A DNA stretch of 32,534 nucleotides from an uncultured Bacteroidales bacterium (GTDB lineage Bacteria > Bacteroidota > Bacteroidia > Bacteroidales > Bacteroidaceae), in the NCBI GenBank assembly GCA_902788275.1, contig CADAJV010000038.1, positions 1 to 32,534 on the forward strand. The letters are read 5' to 3'. A program made the position numbers and the translations under genes. The notes under the pieces were generated by a model that was given only the letters and a program-made list of their open reading frames with translations, was not told where the DNA came from and did not search any database. Below are positions 2,621 to 32,498 of this stretch, one piece after another. The first letter of the stretch is position 1, and each line of letters starts with the position of its first letter.

Positions 2621-2833
2621 AAAACACAAGCAACGGATGTAAGAAGTAAGCCCTCCTCTTTATATGAACTGAAAAATTAGACAGCACGCGTCTTTACGAC
2701 GTTGGTAACTATTTTTACCGGACACCAATAAATAATGATAGTTCATGAATAATTTGCGGTAATTCGCGTTTGAAAAACAACTTGATTTTCAGCAAAGTAC
2801 CAAATCTTTTTTCTATCTCTGAGGAGCCGCAAT

Positions 2834-2896
2834 CTAAAAGCCTTGAAACGAAATCTAAGAGCCTCGAAACCAAATCTAAAAGCCTTGAAAATGACA
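2834..2896 (+). repeat. Tandem 21-bp repeats, type A, three units
   Basis: Units start at 2834, 2855 and 2876 and share the core CTAARAGCCTYGAAA. Read in one frame they give the heptad SLETKSK; in another, LKALKRN-like. The array is part of a block of about 100 bp (2834-2931) copied with few changes at 32436-32534. An open frame over it (2770-2979) has only a TTG start, so a protein is not called here. Confidence 0.85.
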
Positions 2897-2920
2897 GCTC
2901 GAGGCTCTTAGATTTTTTTT
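2851..2920 (+). terminator. Terminator-like hairpin made from an inverted 21-mer
   Basis: Positions 2899-2915 are the perfect 17-bp reverse complement of 2851-2867, and the nearer unit 2872-2888 can pair with one mismatch and one G-U. Eight T residues follow (2913-2920). This has the form of an intrinsic terminator for a plus-strand transcript crossing the type A repeats. No gene ends here, so the RNA it would stop is unknown. Confidence 0.5.
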
Positions 2921-2973
2921 CCTCGGAGTTAGTTTCTTTTTCCTCGGAGTTAAAAAAATTTTCGACGGGCTCA

Positions 2974-3117
2974 GTTTAAATTTTCAAGGGGATTAGTTTT
3001 CGTTAAGTCCACATTTGCCGCTTTTATCTCTACGTTAAATTTTCTAAGGTCGACGTTAGATTTTCTAAGGTCGCCGTTAGATTTTCTAAGGTCCACGTTA
3101 AAATTTTTTATCTCGCG
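2974..3117 (-). repeat. 21-bp repeats, type C, seven diverged units
   Basis: On the plus strand three near-identical units (core GTTAGATTTTCTAAGG) occupy 3034-3096. On the minus strand the 21-bp phase continues through 3117-2974 and reads as heptads NVDLRKS, NGDLRKS, NVDLRKF, NVEIKAA, NVDLTKT and NPLENLN before a TGA at 2973-2971. Diverged units keep N at the first position and V-D/E-L/I after it. The frame is closed upstream by TGA and has no ATG, so it looks like a remnant or is not translated. It runs toward the type A repeats. Confidence 0.75.
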
Positions 3118-3177: not shown

Positions 3178-6100
3178 TTAGTCCATGGGTTTTATCATTT
3201 TTTCAATGAGGGCGATTTCTTCTTCAGTGAGGCCGTACTTCGCGTAGAGGTCGGCATCTGTCCAAGGACGGGTGAAGTCTTGGAGAGGAACAAAAGCGAA
3301 GCATTCTCGCGTAATATTGACAGACGTTATAGCCTGTCTTAGTAGATAACGAGCAAATTTTGTGCACAGATATTTTTTGTAGTTCGTGGCTTCGTTCAGT
3401 GTATCGAATACAGCCGTATCAATATATGTTTCTGTATTTATTTCATCTTTATTCAGAATTCTTGGTGTAGTGAGGACTCTATATCCTTCGCCAGACTTAA
3501 CGTTCAATTCTCCATTACTTGGGACAAATCTTCCAACGATAATCTTATATTTGTTTACATGAACATTACCTTTTGTTATTTCAGAGCGGCTTATGTACCC
3601 CCAACCATCGCTGGTAAGTATCTTTATGTCACCCTCTTTTTTTTCAGTTCTTCCTCTGAAATAGGTTCTAAATCCAAATGGATTTATAGAAAGAACAAGA
3701 TTATTTAGATATTCTGTAGACTGCTTCGTCACTTTCTGTAAGATTGGTATTGATGTGTTGGAACGTACAAATACTGGAAATTCGTCAAGATAGCGCTCTG
3801 TGAAATATGAACCTAATGGACTTACATTATAGACTTTACATGGGGCGATGTTCGATTTCTGCCATAATAGATAGCATAATCCACCAGCAATGTCAACTGT
3901 AGGGAACAAGTCTTTGCTAGTTTCGAAATCATATAGATATTTAATTTGTTTGTCAGACAGCATACTTTCTCTGAACTCGTCCAAGCCTCTTCCTCCTGCA
4001 TACCAACGAGCAGGCATAATCATAGAGATATAGTTGGGTTTACATTTCTTGGCAATTTCAACAAAGTGCTGATATACAGGGACTGCTCCTCTATCTGTTC
4101 CTCCATCCATTACCTGATACGGAGGATTTCCAACTATTGCATCTAATTTCATGTTTTCGTCATTATTGATTTTCCAGAATCGTCTGCCGTCGCGGAAAGT
4201 GTTGACTACTACGGCAGGCATTTCTGTTATGTTTTTAATTAAATCGGGATAATACTTTGCATTTACTTTTACATCGCGGAAGCCTGCGAGAGTGCGTCGC
4301 GTGATGCTCTCTGCCATCGGTGTCTTGCAGACTATGAGTATGTTCTCCTCTATTGTGGCGTCCCATAGCATCTGAGCCAGCGCATGGTTGATGTCGCCGT
4401 ACTTCTGCCTGGTAGCCTCCACACGCGACCTATAGATATTATAGGCTACGTATAGCGGATAGAGACCGCTCTTGGAGTTGATTTCAAGGATGTGGCTGTC
4501 TGTGCGGAAAACATCTTTTGTTACCTGCCCTTGGTCAACATAGCGCGGTGTCGAGAGTATTTTCTTAAACTCCTCGTCATAGAAGCACCAACCGCCGAGG
4601 CAGTCGCTCATGTGCATATTGACCACTCGCCACGGGGTGAGCACCGTCTCCTTGTCAGGATTGCGGAATGTGTTGAATATGTCGGCGATGCGCTCAATGC
4701 GTTCCTCGATTGTGAATTTATCGGCAGCACGAGCCATGGCGCGTATGCGTTTGCCAGCCTCTCGGAAGATGTCGGGGTCGTAGTATTTGCTGAACTTGGC
4801 AAATATCTCCTTATCAACGCCCTTGGGCATAAACTCCTCCCATGAGAGGTCGTCCACAAGGTCGGCAAAGTTGTCAAGGGTAATCTCTTCGTCCTCACTG
4901 TTCAGTTTTGCGCCGTATATCATCAGCGGCATACGGATAGAGATACCGCGCAGTATGCTGATGGCCTCGCATCGCTGATTGCCGAGAGCTTTCAGTTCGT
5001 CGAGTCGTGCCTGCTCCTCGGGAGTGCGCTCTTTCTTTTTCTTCTTCTCCAGCTTCTCTTTTTCCCGATACTGCTCATTGGTCAGTCCCTGCTGATTGAC
5101 GTCGATGTTGCCAGTCTTGGCCATTGCCTTGGTCTTGCCGATAATGCCTTTAAGGTCGGCGAACTCGCGCAGCTCCACATCGGTAAGCTTCAGCAGTTCG
5201 TCGTTATAGAGCGTGGCATCCTCAAAGCCGCACTGCACAACTTTCTCTATTTGCGCCCGCTTGAGCTGGCTCATCATGGTGTTGACGTCGTACCCCTTCA
5301 TCTGGCTGCCCTCTATCGAGATGATGGGACAGAAGTTGAGGAAGTCGCCCAGCGTCTTGCGGTCTTCTTCGGTCTGCTTGCCTGCCTTGGCACTGACCTT
5401 GGCAGTCTCAGCCAGCACACGCAGGGTGCGGTCGGGAGCGAAGTCGAAAGCATAGCATTGCTCCTTCATTCTGCCCTTATATTCAAACGGACTCTGCACG
5501 CGGAAGATGGTCTGCATATATTGCGCTGCCGAGGTGCTGTAGGAGCCTGAGAGCATAAACACGGCAGTCCACGGCTTTACAGTGACGCCTGTGGTCAGTC
5601 GCCCACAGCTGAGAGTGATGGTATATGTCTCGCCCGGGTCTTTGCCGATAGCTTTCTCTACCAGACGGAGTGCATCAGCATTCTCTACATCATCATCGCC
5701 ATCGCCGGCAACATTTACTACTTCAAAGCCACCGAAGACAGGATGCCCCTGCAGCTTGGCACTGAGCGCCTTGGCAGCCTTCACTCCCGGCACCACCCAC
5801 AGGGTGTGGCGGAATATACGGCGAAACTCTTCGCAACTGAACGGATAGAGACTGTCCTTGTCATCACGGCAAAGCAGATTGAGGAAGTTGTCTATATCCC
5901 TGTTATATATGAAAGTGCCGTCGTCACGAGTGCGGAAGAACTCGCGGAAGTTGAAAGCCTTTTCATCGTCGGCAAAATCGCTCATCAGCCTGCCGAGGTC
6001 GTAGGTGTAGATGTTGATGGCGGGCAGCGAGGCGTAGGGGTTGGGCTCGTAGGGATTGTCGGTGTACCATGCCTGCTTGGCCTTCTGCTCCATCACATAG

Positions 6101-7101
6101 TCCCAAGTATAAATCTCTTCCTCGGCGTAGTTGTCGAAGAGGTTAAACGGCGTGCCCGACAGCTCGAGTAGTTTGGTCTCGCCTTTCCACAGCTCACCGA
6201 TTACGTTTTGCCCCAACTCGGTTTGGGTACCCTCGTGAGCCTCATCAACAATTACGAGATTCCAGTCAGTGCTGAATATCTCGTTGTTCTTATCAAACTT
6301 TCCGCCCACTTGCTCAGAGCCACGAAGGTCTTGCATTGAAGCGAAATAAACGTAACTCTCTCCGCGCTTGTAGAGCCTCTCCAGAGAATGGAAACTTTCG
6401 CCTTTGTCGCGTGAACCGTAATGATAAGTGGGGGCGTCGTAGAATATCTTGCCAAAATCCTCAAACCATTGTTCATCCACCACAGGGCGATGGGTGAGGA
6501 TGATGGTGCGACGGTAGCCCTCTTCCTTTACCACCTGCAAGGCCGAGAGAGTCTTGCCGAAGCGCATCTTGGCATTCCAGAGCATTTTGTTGCCATGGCG
6601 AAAACGCTTGATGGTCTTTTCGATGGCACTGCTTTGCTCCGGACGGAAGATGATAGGAGTGTGCTCCTCGCTTATCTCATTGGCTTGCAAGCTTGAGCGT
6701 CCCTGCTTGGCTGCAACAATAGCCTTTTTCGCCGTTTCAAGGTCGCAGCAGTACCACTCGTCGGCTCTGCCGCTTACTCCGGGAAACTCTTTCTTCTTTA
6801 TTCCACTGCGGCGCAGAATTTCGTGCACCTGTTTGTCGTTGAATGTGCCAATAGCTCCGCTCCTAATAAACACGGTGCTTTCTGTGTGGAGCAACTGATA
6901 GGCTATGCCGGCAGTGCGAGTCTGCCCATCTATGCGCTTGCGGGCAGCTCGATTCAGCAGCTCGCAATTTGGCGTGATTTCGCTGCCGTTGTCTTCGTCA
7001 AGCGTCGTCTCGCCAATCTTGAGGCAGTTGCGGTGCGCATCATCAGGTATTGCATAAACATATATGAGACGCGCCTTTAGTGATGATTCAAATGTTGCCA
7101 T
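3178..7101 (-). CDS. Restriction-modification fusion: GIY-YIG nuclease, DEAH helicase, Eco57I-like methylase
   Basis: A 1307-residue protein that probably combines DNA cutting, translocation and adenine methylation. Residues about 10-130 resemble the T5orf172-type GIY-YIG fold (LIYVYAIPDD, LKIGE). A superfamily 2 helicase follows: Walker A AKMRFGKT (K183), DEAH at 286-289, motif III LSGTP at about 311-315, and an arginine-finger motif QYMQTIFR at about 527-534. A lysine/glutamate-rich linker lies near 680-720. The methylase part has a divergent SAM motif I (LEINSKSGLYPL, E873) and a catalytic NPPY at 992-995. The C-terminus (about 1010-1260) is the likely target-recognition region and is visibly more AT-rich. 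The gene starts 6 nt after its partner. Domains are seen in sequence; restriction activity is inferred. Confidence 0.88.
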   Translation of the reverse strand: MATFESSLKARLIYVYAIPDDAHRNCLKIGETTLDEDNGSEITPNCELLNRAARKRIDGQTRTAGIAYQLLHTESTVFIRSGAIGTFNDKQVHEILRRSGIKKKEFPGVSGRADEWYCCDLETAKKAIVAAKQGRSSLQANEISEEHTPIIFRPEQSSAIEKTIKRFRHGNKMLWNAKMRFGKTLSALQVVKEEGYRRTIILTHRPVVDEQWFEDFGKIFYDAPTYHYGSRDKGESFHSLERLYKRGESYVYFASMQDLRGSEQVGGKFDKNNEIFSTDWNLVIVDEAHEGTQTELGQNVIGELWKGETKLLELSGTPFNLFDNYAEEEIYTWDYVMEQKAKQAWYTDNPYEPNPYASLPAINIYTYDLGRLMSDFADDEKAFNFREFFRTRDDGTFIYNRDIDNFLNLLCRDDKDSLYPFSCEEFRRIFRHTLWVVPGVKAAKALSAKLQGHPVFGGFEVVNVAGDGDDDVENADALRLVEKAIGKDPGETYTITLSCGRLTTGVTVKPWTAVFMLSGSYSTSAAQYMQTIFRVQSPFEYKGRMKEQCYAFDFAPDRTLRVLAETAKVSAKAGKQTEEDRKTLGDFLNFCPIISIEGSQMKGYDVNTMMSQLKRAQIEKVVQCGFEDATLYNDELLKLTDVELREFADLKGIIGKTKAMAKTGNIDVNQQGLTNEQYREKEKLEKKKKKERTPEEQARLDELKALGNQRCEAISILRGISIRMPLMIYGAKLNSEDEEITLDNFADLVDDLSWEEFMPKGVDKEIFAKFSKYYDPDIFREAGKRIRAMARAADKFTIEERIERIADIFNTFRNPDKETVLTPWRVVNMHMSDCLGGWCFYDEEFKKILSTPRYVDQGQVTKDVFRTDSHILEINSKSGLYPLYVAYNIYRSRVEATRQKYGDINHALAQMLWDATIEENILIVCKTPMAESITRRTLAGFRDVKVNAKYYPDLIKNITEMPAVVVNTFRDGRRFWKINNDENMKLDAIVGNPPYQVMDGGTDRGAVPVYQHFVEIAKKCKPNYISMIMPARWYAGGRGLDEFRESMLSDKQIKYLYDFETSKDLFPTVDIAGGLCYLLWQKSNIAPCKVYNVSPLGSYFTERYLDEFPVFVRSNTSIPILQKVTKQSTEYLNNLVLSINPFGFRTYFRGRTEKKEGDIKILTSDGWGYISRSEITKGNVHVNKYKIIVGRFVPSNGELNVKSGEGYRVLTTPRILNKDEINTETYIDTAVFDTLNEATNYKKYLCTKFARYLLRQAITSVNITRECFAFVPLQDFTRPWTDADLYAKYGLTEEEIALIEKMIKPMD

Positions 7102-7107
7102 ACATTA

Positions 7108-8118
7108 TTATTTAATCAGGTCAACAAACCGGATTTTCTTTTTTTCATTTTTCCAGTCGCGGATGAGGCAGTAGATGCCGTTGTGCTGCTGCCGGTCTTC
7201 CTGCTGACAGCCGGGACAGTGGATGGTGCGTTCTTCTTCGCCGAAAAGAGTCTCCACTTTCTCCGTCACTCCATCTTTGCAACTGCATGGCACTACCATC
7301 TTGAGGCCGTCCATCTGCCATAGATTCCACGAAACGATGTAGGCGATGTAGTTAACCGACTTGACCAATGGCAGCCGCCCAAACTTTGCAAAGAAATAGT
7401 CTATGAATGTGGCCAGTACGTTTTCACGGGCAAGCAGCAGGCTATCGCCTTGCCATTCATAGCCATAGCAATTCTGCACGGCCACCTGGGCCCACTCCAG
7501 CCATTCGCCAGATGTGTCGGTGTTTTCGCTGACAATGCGCAGCTTGCGGTCGAGCAGACCTATTCGTTCTTGAAGAGGGATGGGGCTGCCCGTAGTTGTG
7601 TCGTAGCGACTCACCAAATACGGAGCCTCACCACAGGTAATCTCCAGTCGAGTGGCGCGGACATAGTCTTTCCACGATTTGCCGTCGGGAAAATCTATCT
7701 TGTTAGGGGTGGATTGCCAACTTTTGTTGTCTGCTCCAATTGTGTTGAAAACATCGGGGCGACCAAACCACGCCTCGTCAATGAGATTGTTCTGCGCATT
7801 GCATATCCACGAGGGGGTGAATACCTCAGCCATATCCTTAGAGCGACCAGTCTGGTTGTCCTTCGATTTCATGACGCGCGGTTTGACAACGGCACCGTTG
7901 TCGCCGGTAATTAACCGGGGTAGAATTGGCGAGAAAAAACCATAGCTATCGCCGAGCGATTCATAGTCATGAGTCGCCCAGAAAATATTGTGGCCTGTGG
8001 TATGGTCGCGCAGCAGAGTGTCGAGCACCTCCGGCGAGAAGGCCACCAAGTCATCCTCCCTGATATCAACAGAGAGATTGCCGCCCACAGCGGACGGCAC
8101 AAGAATGTTGTTTGGCAT
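7108..8118 (-). CDS. Small methylase-like subunit of the restriction-modification operon
   Basis: A 336-residue protein of the kind annotated as restriction endonuclease subunit M in Bacteroidetes. It has a motif X-like segment AEVFTPSWICNAQN (about residues 93-106) and a motif I-like segment LEITCGEAPYL (about 156-166) where DNA methylases have L-x-P-x-C-G-x-G. A conserved stretch with WNLWQMDGL follows, then a zinc-ribbon pattern of CSC and CPGC near the C-terminus. No NPPY or DPPY catalytic motif was found; that motif is in the downstream partner. This suggests the two proteins act together, with SAM binding or assembly split between them. It is the first gene of the operon and its ATG lies 5 nt below the rod-like inverted repeat. 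Confidence 0.75.
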   Translation of the reverse strand: MPNNILVPSAVGGNLSVDIREDDLVAFSPEVLDTLLRDHTTGHNIFWATHDYESLGDSYGFFSPILPRLITGDNGAVVKPRVMKSKDNQTGRSKDMAEVFTPSWICNAQNNLIDEAWFGRPDVFNTIGADNKSWQSTPNKIDFPDGKSWKDYVRATRLEITCGEAPYLVSRYDTTTGSPIPLQERIGLLDRKLRIVSENTDTSGEWLEWAQVAVQNCYGYEWQGDSLLLARENVLATFIDYFFAKFGRLPLVKSVNYIAYIVSWNLWQMDGLKMVVPCSCKDGVTEKVETLFGEEERTIHCPGCQQEDRQQHNGIYCLIRDWKNEKKKIRFVDLIK

Positions 8119-10110: not shown

Positions 10111-10575
10111 TTATTTCTTCCAGAATCGGCTGGTGATGTCTTCAAAGGTGCCGTCGGGCTGCTTCTTGTAGAGCCGCTGGTTGGTGGTGGGTTGCTTCAG
10201 TGGGCCGAGGTGGCGTATGAAGGGGCCTACCTTGATATAGTCGAAGTCGGCCTTGTTGACGATGGATGGTATGCGCAATCGGCCGCTATACCATGCTACG
10301 CGGTACTTGGGGTGGGCCTGATGGATATATACTGCGAGTTCGTTGACGGCCTGGGGCTCTGCGTCACCGCCCATGAAGGCTATGCAGGTGATGTCGGTGC
10401 CGTACTGCTTGACAAAGCTGTCGATGGCGGCAGTGTCAAGCGGCGTGCCGCTGTCCTCCCACAGGTATTGGCTGTGGCATCCCGGACAGCGGCACGGGCA
10501 GTTGGAGATGTTGACGGCCAGGGTTACCTCGTCGGGTATCTCCTGAAAAACGATCCCTGAGTTTACAAACTTCAT
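10111..10575 (-). CDS. nrdG: Anaerobic ribonucleotide reductase activating protein (radical SAM)
   Basis: The 154-residue enzyme uses S-adenosylmethionine and a 4Fe-4S cluster to create the glycyl radical on NrdD, switching on oxygen-free deoxynucleotide synthesis. The radical-SAM motif CxxxCxxC is C26, C30 and C33, with an extra C28 between them. MGGDAEP matches the SAM-contacting GGDP-like region. Length fits the family (E. coli NrdG is 154). The gene lies downstream of nrdD on the same strand, but a four-helix-bundle gene and a heptamer array now separate them; the array starts 2 nt before its ATG. A terminator follows. How the array affects its expression is not known. Confidence 0.95.
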   Translation of the reverse strand: MKFVNSGIVFQEIPDEVTLAVNISNCPCRCPGCHSQYLWEDSGTPLDTAAIDSFVKQYGTDITCIAFMGGDAEPQAVNELAVYIHQAHPKYRVAWYSGRLRIPSIVNKADFDYIKVGPFIRHLGPLKQPTTNQRLYKKQPDGTFEDITSRFWKK

Positions 10576-10577
10576 CA

Positions 10578-10700
10578 GAGTTAGGAGTTAGGAGTTAGGA
10601 GTTAGGAGTTAGGAGTTAGGAGTTAGGAGTTAGGAGTTAGGAGTTAGGAGTTAGGAGTTAGGAGTTAGGAGTTAGGTAGGAGTTAGGAGTTAGGAGTTAG
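10578..10700. repeat. Heptamer array GAGTTAG, 17 units
   Basis: Fourteen perfect GAGTTAG units run from 10578 to 10675. They are followed by a GTAG fragment (10676-10679) and three more units to 10700. The array fills the gap between nrdG and the four-helix-bundle gene and supplies that gene's last codons and stop. Such a perfect array should vary in copy number by slippage. Confidence 0.97.
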
Positions 10701-11057
10701 GGATTGCTTTGATGTTTTTGTTATGGACATAAATATTTTTTTCAATTCTTCGCAATCTGAGAAGATGGAGTTGAATTGCTCTTGTGATAGATGTCCGGCT
10801 CTGTGTAGCACTTCAAGCCAATACATGGTTTCTGCTGTTTCTTTGAGAGAAATGTAAATCTTGGACAAGAAATCTTTCTTGCTTATGCCGTATTGTGCTT
10901 CAGCCAAGTTTGCTCCTATGCTTGTGCCACTTCTAAGGATTTGTTTGGAGATAATGTGTTCCTTTTTCTCCTCATTAAGAAAAGAATATAGCTTGGTAAT
11001 CTTAATAGAGAAGTCAAGTGATTTGTTGTAAATGAATGCTTTGAAATCTTCTATCAT
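10683..11057 (-). CDS. Four-helix-bundle protein (23S intervening-sequence / Avd-like family)
   Basis: A 124-residue protein of the TIGR02436-type family. The signature runs from DFKAFIYNKSLDFSIKITK through ILRSGTSIGANLAEA and KKDFLSKIYISLKETAETMYWLEVL. Relatives are encoded in intervening sequences of 23S rRNA in some spirochaetes and resemble the Avd accessory proteins of diversity-generating retroelements. No reverse transcriptase or variable repeat is present here. The molecular function of the stand-alone family is unknown. The last residues (SLTPNS) and stop come from the neighbouring GAGTTAG array. The gene interrupts nrdD-nrdG and is more AT-rich than either, which suggests insertion. 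Confidence 0.9.
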   Translation of the reverse strand: MIEDFKAFIYNKSLDFSIKITKLYSFLNEEKKEHIISKQILRSGTSIGANLAEAQYGISKKDFLSKIYISLKETAETMYWLEVLHRAGHLSQEQFNSIFSDCEELKKIFMSITKTSKQSLTPNS

Positions 11058-11080
11058 GGTTTTAGCTTCTGTCCTTAAAT

Positions 11081-11114
11081 TAACTCCTCACTCCTCACTC
11101 CTCACTCCTCACTC
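11081..11114. repeat. Heptamer array TCACTCC, inverted relative to 10578-10700
   Basis: One TAACTCC unit (11081-11087) and three TCACTCC units are followed by a partial unit. On the minus strand this reads GGAGTGA..GGAGTTA, a one-base variant of the GGAGTTA heptamer found on the plus strand at 10578-10700. It begins at the stop codon of nrdD (TAG, 11116-11114) and ends 23 bp upstream of the four-helix-bundle start. Confidence 0.9.
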
Positions 11115-13210
11115 TAATTGGCTTTGGCGTAGTAGCGGCGTGCGGCCTCTTCCTGACGGGGCTGCGAGAAATTGCTGACACGCTTGAGGTAGCCGATGAT
11201 GCGGGTCATGTAGTCCACATTCTTGCTGTGGCACTTGGGGCACTCCTTGAGGTAGCGCTTGTCGATATGGCCGCAGTCGTTGCAGACGGTGTTGGGGATG
11301 TTGAAGGTGAAATAGTTGCAGCCTTCCTTGGCGGCTACCTTGAGCAGCTGTGCGTACTGCTGCTTGCTGAGGTGCTCCTCGAGGTTCATGTGGAGGGCAG
11401 AGCCGCCGGTGAGGTGCTCAATGTAGGGGGCGCCGTGGAGCTTGAACTTGTCGATGATGGAGAGGCTGTCGTCTTCCACTACGTAGAAATAGCTGTTGTA
11501 GCAGTCGCGGGGCACGAAGTAGCCGTCCTCACGGTCCCACTTGGCATGCTTGACACCTACGTTCTCGGCGGGTATCATCTCGCAGTTGAACATCACGTCC
11601 TTGGTGCGGTACTGCTTGTTGTACTTCTCGATGAGGCCGAGGATGCCCTGAACGAATTTTTTATACTCTTCGTTGGGGGTGATGCGCAGACCCATGAACT
11701 CGGCTGCCTCTACGAGACCGTTGATGCCGATGGTGAGGTACTGGCGGGCGATGTTGATGTAGCCGGCATCAAAGAGGGGCAGCATGCCTGCCTTCTGCAG
11801 CTCCTTGAGGTTTTCGTTGTAGGCGAGCTGCACCTTATGGCAGAGGTCGATGATGCCGCCGAGGTACTCGAGGTAGTCGAGCTTATGGTTGACGGCATAC
11901 TGGATGCAGCGGTTGAGGTTGATGGTGAGCACTGACTTGGAGCCTGTGCTGACGCCGCCGGCACCGAGGGTGTAGCTGAAGCCATTGTCGGTAATCTCGT
12001 TGCGCAGACGGCAGCAGCTGGACAGCGAGTCGGCATTGTCGCTCATGTAGGTAAAGAATGAGTGGCCCTCGGAGTACATCTCGGCAGTGAAGTCGCCCCA
12101 TTCCTGGTCGAGGCAGTTGCCCTCCTTGTCGGTGAGCAGGGCCATGGTCTCAACGGGGAAGGTGAGCATGGTCTTGGTGCGCTCCTTGTTGAACCACTTC
12201 ATAAAGCGTTTCTGCAGCCAGCTGAGGCCTGCCCAGTCGGGCTTGGAGCCGTCGGGGAAATAGAAGTCGCCGAAGATAGACTCGAAGTAGTAGCGGTCAT
12301 AGTATGCCACGTTCCAGAAGACGGCCTGGTAGTTGCGCGCGCCGGTGGGCTGGTTGAGGGTGTAGACAATCTGCTCGAAGTAGTCGGTGATGACCTTGTC
12401 GAGGGTGCGATGCTTGAGGCTCAGGTCTGCCTGCTGGTCAACACGGGTGTAGTAGTCAAGGCCGTACTCCTTGCCCAGGAAGTAGTTCATATACATCAGG
12501 AACTCGGGGGTGGCGCAGGCACCGCTGAGCATGGAGCTGACCATGAACACCATGTTGACGAAACCTCCGCAGAAGGACTTGAGGTTGGTTGGTGCGGTAG
12601 AGTTGCCACCGATGGACTTGGTGCCGTCGATGAGCCAGGGGTACATGGTGATGCTGGCGCAATAGTTGGCCAGGGATGTCTCATCGTTCTTATATATAAA
12701 GTGGTGGGTGAGTTTGTCGATATACTCATCGGCCAACTGCTTGCCATACATTTTCTTGATGCGGTCGGTGAGGAGGCGGCGGTTGAGGCGGATGAAGTTT
12801 GACTTGGGCAGTTCGCCGATGAGGGTGGCTATGTTCTTGTGTTCCACATTGGCGTTGGCATCGTACTTGGAGCCTGTGGCGGCATTGACGGAATCGCAAT
12901 ACTCGGAGAGGAACTGCAGCTTCTGGAGTGTCTCGCGGTCCTCGGAGTGCTGCTGGCGATAGAGGATGAAAGATTTGGCCACTCGGTAGTATCCCTCGCG
13001 CATCAGGGCTTCCTCTACCTGATTCTGGATGTCCTCAACCTTGATGTCGTTGCGGATGTCGAGATGGTTGATGATCTTGGAGATGGTGCCGAGGTCGGCA
13101 GGCTCCTCTACGCTGTCGAAGGCTTTGATGATGGCGTTCATAATCTTGTCCAGGGAGAAACTGTCCTTGGAGCCATCGCGCTTAGTGATAGTGAAGTTTT
13201 TTATTTCCAT
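11114..13210 (-). CDS. nrdD: Anaerobic ribonucleoside-triphosphate reductase
   Basis: Class III reductase that turns ribonucleoside triphosphates into deoxy forms using a glycyl radical made by NrdG. The 698 residues begin with an ATP-cone (about 1-90: ITKRDGSKDSFSLDKI) that senses ATP/dATP, followed by the ten-stranded barrel. Near the C-terminus a zinc site (CNDC and CPKC) is followed by RIIGYL with the radical Gly673. E. coli NrdD is 712 residues. The upstream region holds a good -33/-7 promoter and about 140 nt of hairpin-rich leader. The stop codon runs directly into a heptamer array, so the nrdDG unit appears to have been split by an insertion. Confidence 0.97.
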   Translation of the reverse strand: MEIKNFTITKRDGSKDSFSLDKIMNAIIKAFDSVEEPADLGTISKIINHLDIRNDIKVEDIQNQVEEALMREGYYRVAKSFILYRQQHSEDRETLQKLQFLSEYCDSVNAATGSKYDANANVEHKNIATLIGELPKSNFIRLNRRLLTDRIKKMYGKQLADEYIDKLTHHFIYKNDETSLANYCASITMYPWLIDGTKSIGGNSTAPTNLKSFCGGFVNMVFMVSSMLSGACATPEFLMYMNYFLGKEYGLDYYTRVDQQADLSLKHRTLDKVITDYFEQIVYTLNQPTGARNYQAVFWNVAYYDRYYFESIFGDFYFPDGSKPDWAGLSWLQKRFMKWFNKERTKTMLTFPVETMALLTDKEGNCLDQEWGDFTAEMYSEGHSFFTYMSDNADSLSSCCRLRNEITDNGFSYTLGAGGVSTGSKSVLTINLNRCIQYAVNHKLDYLEYLGGIIDLCHKVQLAYNENLKELQKAGMLPLFDAGYINIARQYLTIGINGLVEAAEFMGLRITPNEEYKKFVQGILGLIEKYNKQYRTKDVMFNCEMIPAENVGVKHAKWDREDGYFVPRDCYNSYFYVVEDDSLSIIDKFKLHGAPYIEHLTGGSALHMNLEEHLSKQQYAQLLKVAAKEGCNYFTFNIPNTVCNDCGHIDKRYLKECPKCHSKNVDYMTRIIGYLKRVSNFSQPRQEEAARRYYAKAN

Positions 13211-32142: not shown

Positions 32143-32205
32143 AAACGTGTGGAAAATGAATTAAAACGCGTGGAAAATGAATTAAAACGCGTGGAAAATG
32201 AATTA
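32143..32205 (+). repeat. Tandem 21-bp repeats, type B, three units
   Basis: Units start at 32143, 32164 and 32185 with the core AAACGCGTGGAAAATGAA. In one frame they read RVENELK heptads preceded by EEPES and followed by YREKNYFSTGLVF, before a TAG. That frame begins after a TGA and has no ATG. The flanks EEP and FSTG also occur around the type A repeats at 2834, although the repeats differ. Confidence 0.85.
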
Positions 32206-32261
32206 TATCGCGAGAAGAATTATTTTTCAACGGGATTAGTTTTTTTGGCAACAATATAGCA

Positions 32262-32313
32262 GTTGGCACAGATTACAATCTCTGCGAAATAGTCATGCTC
32301 TCTCTGTGCCAAC
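32262..32313. other. Hairpin with 11-bp perfect stem
   Basis: GTTGGCACAGA (32262-32272) pairs perfectly with 32303-32313 around a 30-nt loop. No T-run follows. The words AGTTGGCA and GAAATAGTCA inside it also occur at 2593-2620, ahead of the other type A array. Confidence 0.5.
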
Positions 32314-32410
32314 ATCTGTGTCATTGCCTAAAAAAATAAAATGTTTTTTGCATACATTCCTGCAGTGCTTCGGTTAAGGAGTTGAAAAACAGACGATTTA
32401 ATATGCAAGG

Positions 32411-32418
32411 TAATTTTG
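32411..32418 (+). promoter_or_regulatory. -7 element ahead of the type A repeats
   Basis: TAATTTTG is a full TAnnTTTG match on the plus strand. A start near 32425 would give an RNA of about 95 nt ending at the hairpin at 32474-32522. No -33 element was found. Confidence 0.35.
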
Positions 32419-32435
32419 TCCTGTGGAAATCAAAA

Positions 32436-32498
32436 CTAAGAGCCTTGAAACGAAATCTAAGAGCCTTGAAACGAAATCTAAGAGCCTTGAAAATGACA
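32436..32498 (+). repeat. Tandem 21-bp repeats, type A, second copy
   Basis: Three units start at 32436, 32457 and 32478 with the core CTAAGAGCCTTGAAA. The block through the window end at 32534 matches 2834-2931 closely and in the same orientation. A 36-codon frame with an ATG (32403-32513) reads LRALKRN heptads and stops inside the hairpin, but the matching frame at 2834 has no start codon. Confidence 0.9.

Follow-up and report, generated by a model that had tools for sequence, protein, structure and literature searches.

The window analyzed here, a stretch of 32,534 nt that makes up contig 38 of a 93-contig, 2.48-Mb genome (G000, 86.8% complete), carries the upstream operon gene nrdD (13210..11114, minus strand, TIGR02827) and the downstream operon gene nrdG (10575..10111, minus strand, TIGR02826), with a third, small gene between them set within arrays of heptamers. 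In the direction of the operon, the nrdD stop codon (11114-11116, minus strand) is followed directly by a 5′ arm (11081..11113, minus strand, limits set by eye), an array of GGAGTGA-type heptamers whose last unit is GGAGTTA, and then by a spacer (11058..11080, minus strand) and a 124-aa open reading frame (ORF; 11057..10683, minus strand) with profile matches to the four-helix-bundle, S23p-type family (PF05635, E 1.7e-26; TIGR02436, E 2e-29). The 3′ arm (10578..10701, plus strand), an 18-unit GGAGTTA array inverted relative to the 5′ arm, ends 2 nt from the nrdG ATG. TRF resolved these arrays as 18.1 copies of GAGTTAG on the plus strand (10578-10701; 95% matches, 5% indels) and 4.6 copies of ACTCCTC (11083-11114), i.e., GGAGTGA on the minus strand. 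A first-pass annotation had claimed that the nrdD stop runs straight into a minus-strand GGAGTGA array and that a plus-strand GGAGTTA array ends 2 nt before the nrdG start, and both statements agree with the sequence as read; the order of parts that it gave also holds, but the long array does not simply follow the gene, since its range includes the final 19 nt of the ORF (10683-10701). PF05635 was the sole Pfam domain found in this ORF, with no nuclease domain among the matches, its nearest solved structure by sequence is 2RLD, and an Rfam search of the window returned no family at its threshold. A three-unit heptamer pattern had 129 matches in the genome, compared with 13 for the reversed control. 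Gene names used below, other than nrdD, nrdG, and the cas genes, are presumptive, having been recognized from sequence rather than taken from annotation.

Structurally, the arms are predicted to pair. Folded as RNA, the nrdD-nrdG gap forms a single fold with a minimum free energy of −115.4 kcal/mol (z = −4.0; 0 of 100 shuffles as stable), in which a predicted stem of six pairs and one mismatch every seven bases extends from the UAG of nrdD, paired at its foot, to the bases before the nrdG start. The arms of the copy at the same junction in a second genome of the genus (G002) are also predicted to close the fold, with other letters (z −3.1). Arm matching was further quantified with an inverted flank score, a local alignment of the upstream flank to the reverse complement of the downstream flank (threshold 15), for which 262 other genes from 400 kb of G000 served as the null set: the nrd copy scores 25.5, whereas 15 or more was reached by 3 of the 262 ordinary genes. 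Flank score and predicted fold thus both find terminal inverted repeats that would form a stem around the ORF, and they bear out the opposite orientation of the arrays that had been proposed earlier. As part of the overall reading developed below, we consider it likely that the gene and its two arrays constitute one element of ~0.54 kb.

This element is one of seven full PF05635 genes in G000, all of which, when their flanks were read, proved to be enclosed by inverted arrays of 7-8-nt units that are mostly not the same in different copies, for example GGAGTAA at groES|groEL, AAGTTAAG at etfA|acd (acd being an acyl-CoA dehydrogenase gene), and AGTCGCAA at a wza|wzc-like junction. Six of the seven score at least 15, and the remaining copy 14.5; six (those at groES|groEL, etfA|acd, and iorA|iorB among them) lie between codirectional genes, and for the seventh (L002), the upstream neighbor is divergent and the downstream one codirectional. 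The possibility that arrays occur at the nrd copy only, as obtained with a strict GGAGT[TG]A regular expression, was rejected once reading of the flanks showed arrays with other units round every copy. Across wider sets, arms at or above threshold were found for 19 of 26 copies in the genus, 23 of 29 in the order (best matches, different genomes), 15 of 20 further order copies picked down the match list, 44 of 77 scored loci in named genomes from many phyla (54 of 77 at 13 or more), and five of the six copies examined on cyanobacterial plasmids, out of 27 plasmid records matched. In total, 106 of 158 scored copies have arms and 52 lack them at this threshold, a count that includes same-site copies of related genomes and sets that may overlap; the expectation of the first-pass annotation that homologues would be flanked by inverted arrays is therefore supported. 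The named set covers Bacteroidota, Ignavibacteriota, Acidobacteriota, Planctomycetota, Chloroflexota, Nitrospirota, Cyanobacteriota, and candidate phyla, and is biased to the type of the query because it comprises the best 80 matches, three of which (L294, L308, L310) were unscored. The 26 genus copies leave out L087, L088, and L099 (over the cut-off, but fragments or weak; L088 is the second piece of L082), L089, L093, and further matches under the cut-off, and two G002 matches without a locus, one in C12 and a decayed one in C46 (seen as L159), and one locus of the order set, L182, was scored on its second ORF because the first lies at a contig edge. Among 20 low-scoring named loci compared with Rfam, no rRNA was found, and an rRNA location was thus rejected as the cause of array-less copies. 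One family member searched against 50,697 phage records gave no match.

The match between arms is a property of the individual copy. Direct-orientation flank scores of 15 or more occurred in 17 of the 158 copies, and swapped pairs reached 15 in 1.5% (order), 3.0% (named loci), and 1.6% (further order copies) of cases, while among the six plasmid copies, which share units, swapped pairs score up to 23.5. RNA duplex energies parallel the scores, with medians of −45.1 kcal/mol for own flanks versus −29.4 kcal/mol for swapped flanks (n = 124 and 1240); no weight was put on an RNA-bridging test, which discriminates poorly, swapped flanks bridging at least 20 bp in 46-61% of draws. For the 95 of 123 loci that score at least 13, a period of 7 fits the arms best in 53 and a period of 8 in 27, and G exceeds C in the arms, read in the sense of the 5′ arm, in 82. 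Since own arms match and units vary between copies, it is the pairing that is kept, as judged from these alignments, rather than the letters.

Arrays of this kind also stand alone. Heptamers of the nrd type occur at a minimum of 14 other places in G000, some of them between other genes, and the left-arm motif of the etfA|acd element, which reaches into the first codons of its ORF, occurs 30 times in G000 (with that element counted), once in G016, and not at all in the other 17 genus genomes. For six of the seven G000 elements, flank sequence recurs elsewhere in 467 kb of G000, with no recurrence in 133 kb from nine genus genomes free of four-helix-bundle (4HB) genes, although 13 of the G000 stretches in this comparison had been picked for the GGAGTKA array, and arm sequence of the nrd copy recurs partly in stretches so picked. 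Similarly, 7/8-nt arrays number 2 in 138 kb of 4HB-free sequence versus 14 in 130 kb of other sequence in the genus (G000 left out), and 6 in 271 kb of 4HB-free versus 35 in 295 kb of 4HB-rich sequence in the order, where arrays of other periods number 11 and 18, respectively; 4HB copy numbers were taken as PF05635 matches per genome in the genus and order searches, and N stretches (L222, L228, L229, L244) were counted as zero bases. Array density follows the PF05635 gene, a correlation without direction, and solo arrays in such genomes are probably remains or satellites of elements. It could be argued instead that the arrays are ordinary intergenic repeats made by slippage, with the small gene lying between two of them by chance, for which both the solo arrays of G000 and single-orientation arrays in several empty junctions could be cited. 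However, the inverted match between the arms of a copy is far stronger than in swapped pairs or ordinary genes, few copies match in direct orientation, the inverted-arm rule holds across phyla, and array density is low in the sampled genomes without the gene, so that slippage and chance are a very improbable account.

The junctions themselves are variably occupied. An nrdG match was found in 16 of the 19 genus genomes (G000 included), the match in L056 being weak and not the same gene, and a true nrdD|nrdG junction is present in 14 genomes besides G000. Thirteen of these 14 are without the four-helix-bundle gene, with 12-152 nt after the aligned end of nrdD. The outcome that would have spoken against a mobile unit, the same gene and arrays at this junction in all relatives, did not occur, gene and arrays being absent from 13 of 14 relatives' junctions, the nearest included. 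That nearest relative by nrdG (G016, 92% identical) has an empty 25-nt junction with degenerate heptamers, and in the one filled relative, G002, inverted heptamers likewise enclose a copy whose protein is 77% identical; the nrd element has therefore disappeared from some lineages or else arrived at this site repeatedly. Ten further junctions were each read in as many as six genomes, L122 being left uncounted because it repeats L085, and of 41 relative junctions, 39 were without the ORF, one was filled, and one held a decayed copy. At etfA|acd, for example, stop and start are 1 nt apart in five of five relatives versus a 543-nt gap in G000, and at mutA|mutB 3 nt apart in three relatives versus 508 nt in G016, and at wza|wzc of G016 the remaining sequence reads as the 3′ end of the element, i.e., a deletion remnant. 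Inspection by eye of the filled and empty pairs in this set revealed no target-site duplication. Outside the set are the filled serC|serA allele of G008 and the second serC|serA allele of G016, whose bin holds this junction on two contigs (L091, L126) with flanks identical over 67 and 99 nt; these two alleles differ by 368 nt, one with an element (with an altered ORF end) and the other without, joined at AGAGAA|TTCTCT. Both contigs belong to a single metagenome bin that is probably a mixture of strains, and the arms of this element score only 7-11, so we take the pair as a sign of a segregating insertion and not as proof of hairpin-guided excision. Presence and absence, together with two deletion remnants, show that the elements are gained and lost quickly.

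Evolutionarily, copies at the same site in different species are often more alike than their surroundings. In eight same-site pairs, ORF identity was compared with flank identity, and the ORFs were more alike in six, at 94.4-100%: groES|groEL of G000/G016 (99.5 vs 85.9%), serC|serA of G002/G008 (100 vs 88.7%) and of G002/G016 (99.3 vs 87.1%), wza|wzc (94.4 vs 78.5%), iorA|iorB (100 vs 81.1%), and sdhA|sdhB of G007/G008 (99.7 vs 79.3%, the flank value being lowered by an unaligned stretch, with sliding windows at 91-96%). The groES|groEL pair of G000/G004 (79.9 vs 76.3%) is not among these six, and at nrdD|nrdG (G000/G002) the ORF is less alike than the flanks (74.7 vs 85.2%), so an old insertion with losses, or two insertions, would fit as well, and the nrd copy of G000 shows no sign of recent transfer in its sequence. 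When identity was followed in sliding windows along five pairs, it was highest at the element (97% at wza|wzc and 100% at the other four) and dropped within 150-300 bp, sequence a few hundred bases from the near-identical copies being about 80-95% identical. By comparison, 15 of 712 control windows from 24 other locus pairs, which covered no G000-G002 pair, reached 98.5%, all 15 in two G007-G008 pairs; the sdhA|sdhB case is therefore weak, as these two genomes have other near-identical tracts in common. Part of the centering at the element is expected from the selection of sites shared by the two species, and all genomes compared are metagenome bins; for these reasons we speak of apparent site-loyal transfer between species and not of proven homing.

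The same junctions are also filled in more distant genomes: etfA|acd in five further loci (two named Bacteroidales families and one unassigned), sdhA|sdhB in Lacinutrix and in two genomes of the order, a junction on the mutA side in two order genomes, and one on the groEL side in a genome of the Kiritimatiellota. Proteins of the genus that stand at the same junction are 77-100% identical and those at different junctions at most 66%, with 74% for a capsule pair that has only the downstream gene in common. On a tree of 125 proteins, with few columns and rough support, six junction groups need 7 changes versus a mean of 13.4 for shuffled labels (0 of 200 as low); nrdD|nrdG and wza|wzc form single clades, and the other four groups need two changes each. 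A single origin clade per junction thus fails for four of the six groups, and sites were therefore also entered independently. These patterns bear on a stricter alternative, namely a homing-type element whose protein, or whose hairpin, triggers the gene conversion of empty alleles at one chosen junction. The protein identities within the genus, the peaks of 99-100% at groES|groEL, serC|serA, and iorA|iorB, the same junctions in distant taxa, and the clustering by junction on the tree are all in its favor, but the ORF has no nuclease domain, ordinary recombination with selection or fast loss would give a similar pattern once shared sites are chosen, and the independent entries speak against it. 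Strict homing is thus a tentative possibility, which we rate somewhat short of even.

The ORF looks constrained, to judge from substitution rates, in the two older pairs, with dN 0.14 and dS 2.41 between the nrdD|nrdG copies of G000 and G002, and dN 0.10 and dS 1.23 for groES|groEL of G000/G004; the wza|wzc ORF is less constrained (dN 0.042, dS 0.113), and the remaining same-site pairs are too alike or frameshifted for dN/dS. Such constraint would also suit a resident regulatory gene, whose hairpin sets the polarity or coupling of nrdD and nrdG and whose protein regulates the operon, as would the span of the predicted hairpin from stop to start and the codirectionality of copies with both neighbors (92 of 120 judgeable copies vs 108 of 193 ordinary genes). 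A resident regulator is nonetheless unlikely, in that the gene is absent in most relatives, shows decay and remnants, occurs in unrelated operons, and has near-identical copies in diverged hosts.

Among known systems, the closest in plan are the intervening sequences (IVSs) of 23S rRNA. The report on Coxiella (PMC4990558) describes an IVS of 428 nt with a 28-bp stem, an S23p ORF, and tandem heptamers (GACAGAT) before the start codon, with RNase III cutting at the first repeat; the S23p protein is there considered probably not made in vivo, its ORF decaying, which counts against a need for the protein in that case, and the function and origin of rRNA IVSs are described as still unclear more than 25 years after their discovery. 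The statement in the first-pass annotation that this protein family is found in rRNA IVSs is in line with that ORF. Like the rRNA IVSs of Coxiella, Leptospira, and others, the elements described here have a PF05635-type sense ORF inside terminal inverted repeats, are sporadic, and measure about 0.4-0.5 kb, and the nrd element shares with the Coxiella IVS, as far as that source describes it, tandem heptamers 5′ of the ORF. Unlike rRNA IVSs, they lie between protein-coding genes and not in a 23S helix, have arrays on both sides, and reach up to 20 PF05635 matches in one genome of the order. Because it lies outside rRNA, at nrdD|nrdG, the nrd element is not an rRNA IVS by membership; it has the same plan at another location.

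Heptamer arrays without such a gene have been described as well. According to PMC4679880, direct-repeat arrays of TAACTGA occur in Beggiatoaceae, Cyanobacteria, and Bacteroidetes with no evident mechanism of spread; like those arrays, the ones described here have 7-nt units and are intergenic, some inside operons and just before start codons, and unlike them, on that account, they form inverted pairs round a gene. A word search of the text of that paper found neither "S23" nor "four helix", and a literature search, in which subscription journals and preprints were thinly covered, recognized no link between S23p/four-helix genes outside rRNA and inverted heptamer arrays.

Comparison with classical mobile elements is less close. 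In REPIN-RAYT and MITE systems, a gene is flanked by inverted repeats and accompanied by dispersed relatives. The etfA|acd left-arm motif, with 29 further copies in G000, provides such dispersed copies of a flanking repeat, as in REPIN-RAYT; unlike REPIN-RAYT and MITEs, the repeat unit usually differs between copies, and unlike insertion sequences or MITEs, the terminal repeats differ between most copies and no target-site duplication was visible by eye. Homing introns and inteins occur at the same site in diverged hosts and leave host genes intact; PF05635 elements likewise leave host genes intact and occur at the same sites, with a pattern suggestive of invasion in six of eight comparisons (one of them weak, the nrd pair not among them), and differ in that the nrd-copy ORF has no endonuclease domain and no splicing is known. 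An engine acting in trans was sought in G000 (86.8% complete), which had 0 matches to the Y1 (HUH) transposase PF01797 and 0 to the reverse transcriptase PF00078, and was rejected there, G002 having one match to each. The family does resemble, and is homologous to, the Avd protein of diversity-generating retroelements (DGRs) according to PMC10053308, as had been noted earlier, even though G000 lacks a PF00078 match. An element moved in trans by a reverse transcriptase, as Avd acts with the DGR enzyme, could draw on this resemblance and on the PF00078 match of G002, which has many copies; with PF00078 in 5 of 19 genus genomes, and none in G000, G016, and G008, which have several copies each (bins 80-87% complete), such a retroelement is quite unlikely.

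Taken together, we consider that the nrd element is probably an IVS-type element whose place is not within 23S rRNA but between the genes of an mRNA operon. Mechanistically, it would be transcribed with the host operon, upon which the purine-rich 5′ array and the pyrimidine-rich 3′ array are predicted to pair into one long hairpin, with the S23p-type ORF looped out and the stop codon of nrdD placed beside the start codon of nrdG. As the analogy with rRNA IVSs suggests, the stem is probably cleaved by RNase III, and because of this cut the insertion would cost the operon little. The signs of constraint on the ORF in both older pairs make it probable that the four-helix-bundle protein has an activity, the simplest being to bind the repeat hairpin (in RNA or DNA form) and to promote spread, and the sequence pattern at several sites indicates that elements pass from one species to another into the same junction. 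The earlier proposal of a small mobile or spreading unit with its own arrays is supported to this extent, with three amendments: the arms are matched within each copy and are not a fixed terminal sequence, the heptamers also occur alone elsewhere in the genome, and the unit's anatomy, a hairpin with an S23p ORF, corresponds to an intervening sequence and not to a classical transposon. Copies of the same plan, found between operon genes in many phyla and coming and going among close relatives, look like an overlooked mobile element. More broadly, PF05635 genes may represent phylum-crossing small selfish elements, "mRNA intervening sequences" that home to conserved operon junctions, hide in a hairpin cut from the message, and are the source of much otherwise unexplained 7-8-nt array DNA in bacterial genomes, with the rRNA IVS as a special case, a proposal on which we are evenly divided. 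With this anatomy present in many protein operons, some junctions being filled and others empty, the function and origin of IVSs become directly testable, and, if the proposal is true, the heptamer arrays of Bacteroidota and Cyanobacteria gain a source, a gene family that mostly carries the annotation "four helix bundle protein" gains a role, and operon junctions should be read with the warning that they carry selfish genes folding themselves out of the way.

Several further observations accompany these results. Four-helix-bundle genes also occur in CRISPR operons (L352-L354), at cas6|cas4 on plasmids of Pseudanabaena and Anabaena and at cmr2|cmr3 on a Picosynechococcus plasmid. Strong flank repeats in direct rather than inverted orientation (scores 64-143) were seen at L084, L087, L263, L309, and L353, and are perhaps tandem copies or longer duplications. 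The highest score of the 262 control genes, 58, belongs to a nitrilase-like gene of G000 (L109:17578-18760) that lies inside a long inverted composite of intergenic repeats and is without a four-helix-bundle gene of its own. Elsewhere in the window, positions 3178-8118 hold a restriction-modification-like pair, comprising a ResIII/Eco57I protein of 1307 aa and a 336-aa neighbor without a Pfam match, several arrays of 21-nt period lie near both ends (2831-3107 and 32143-32492), one of them within a short ORF, and positions 1-149 hold a 79-nt tandem repeat that contains AGTCGCAA octamers and matches the arms of the G000 wza|wzc element.
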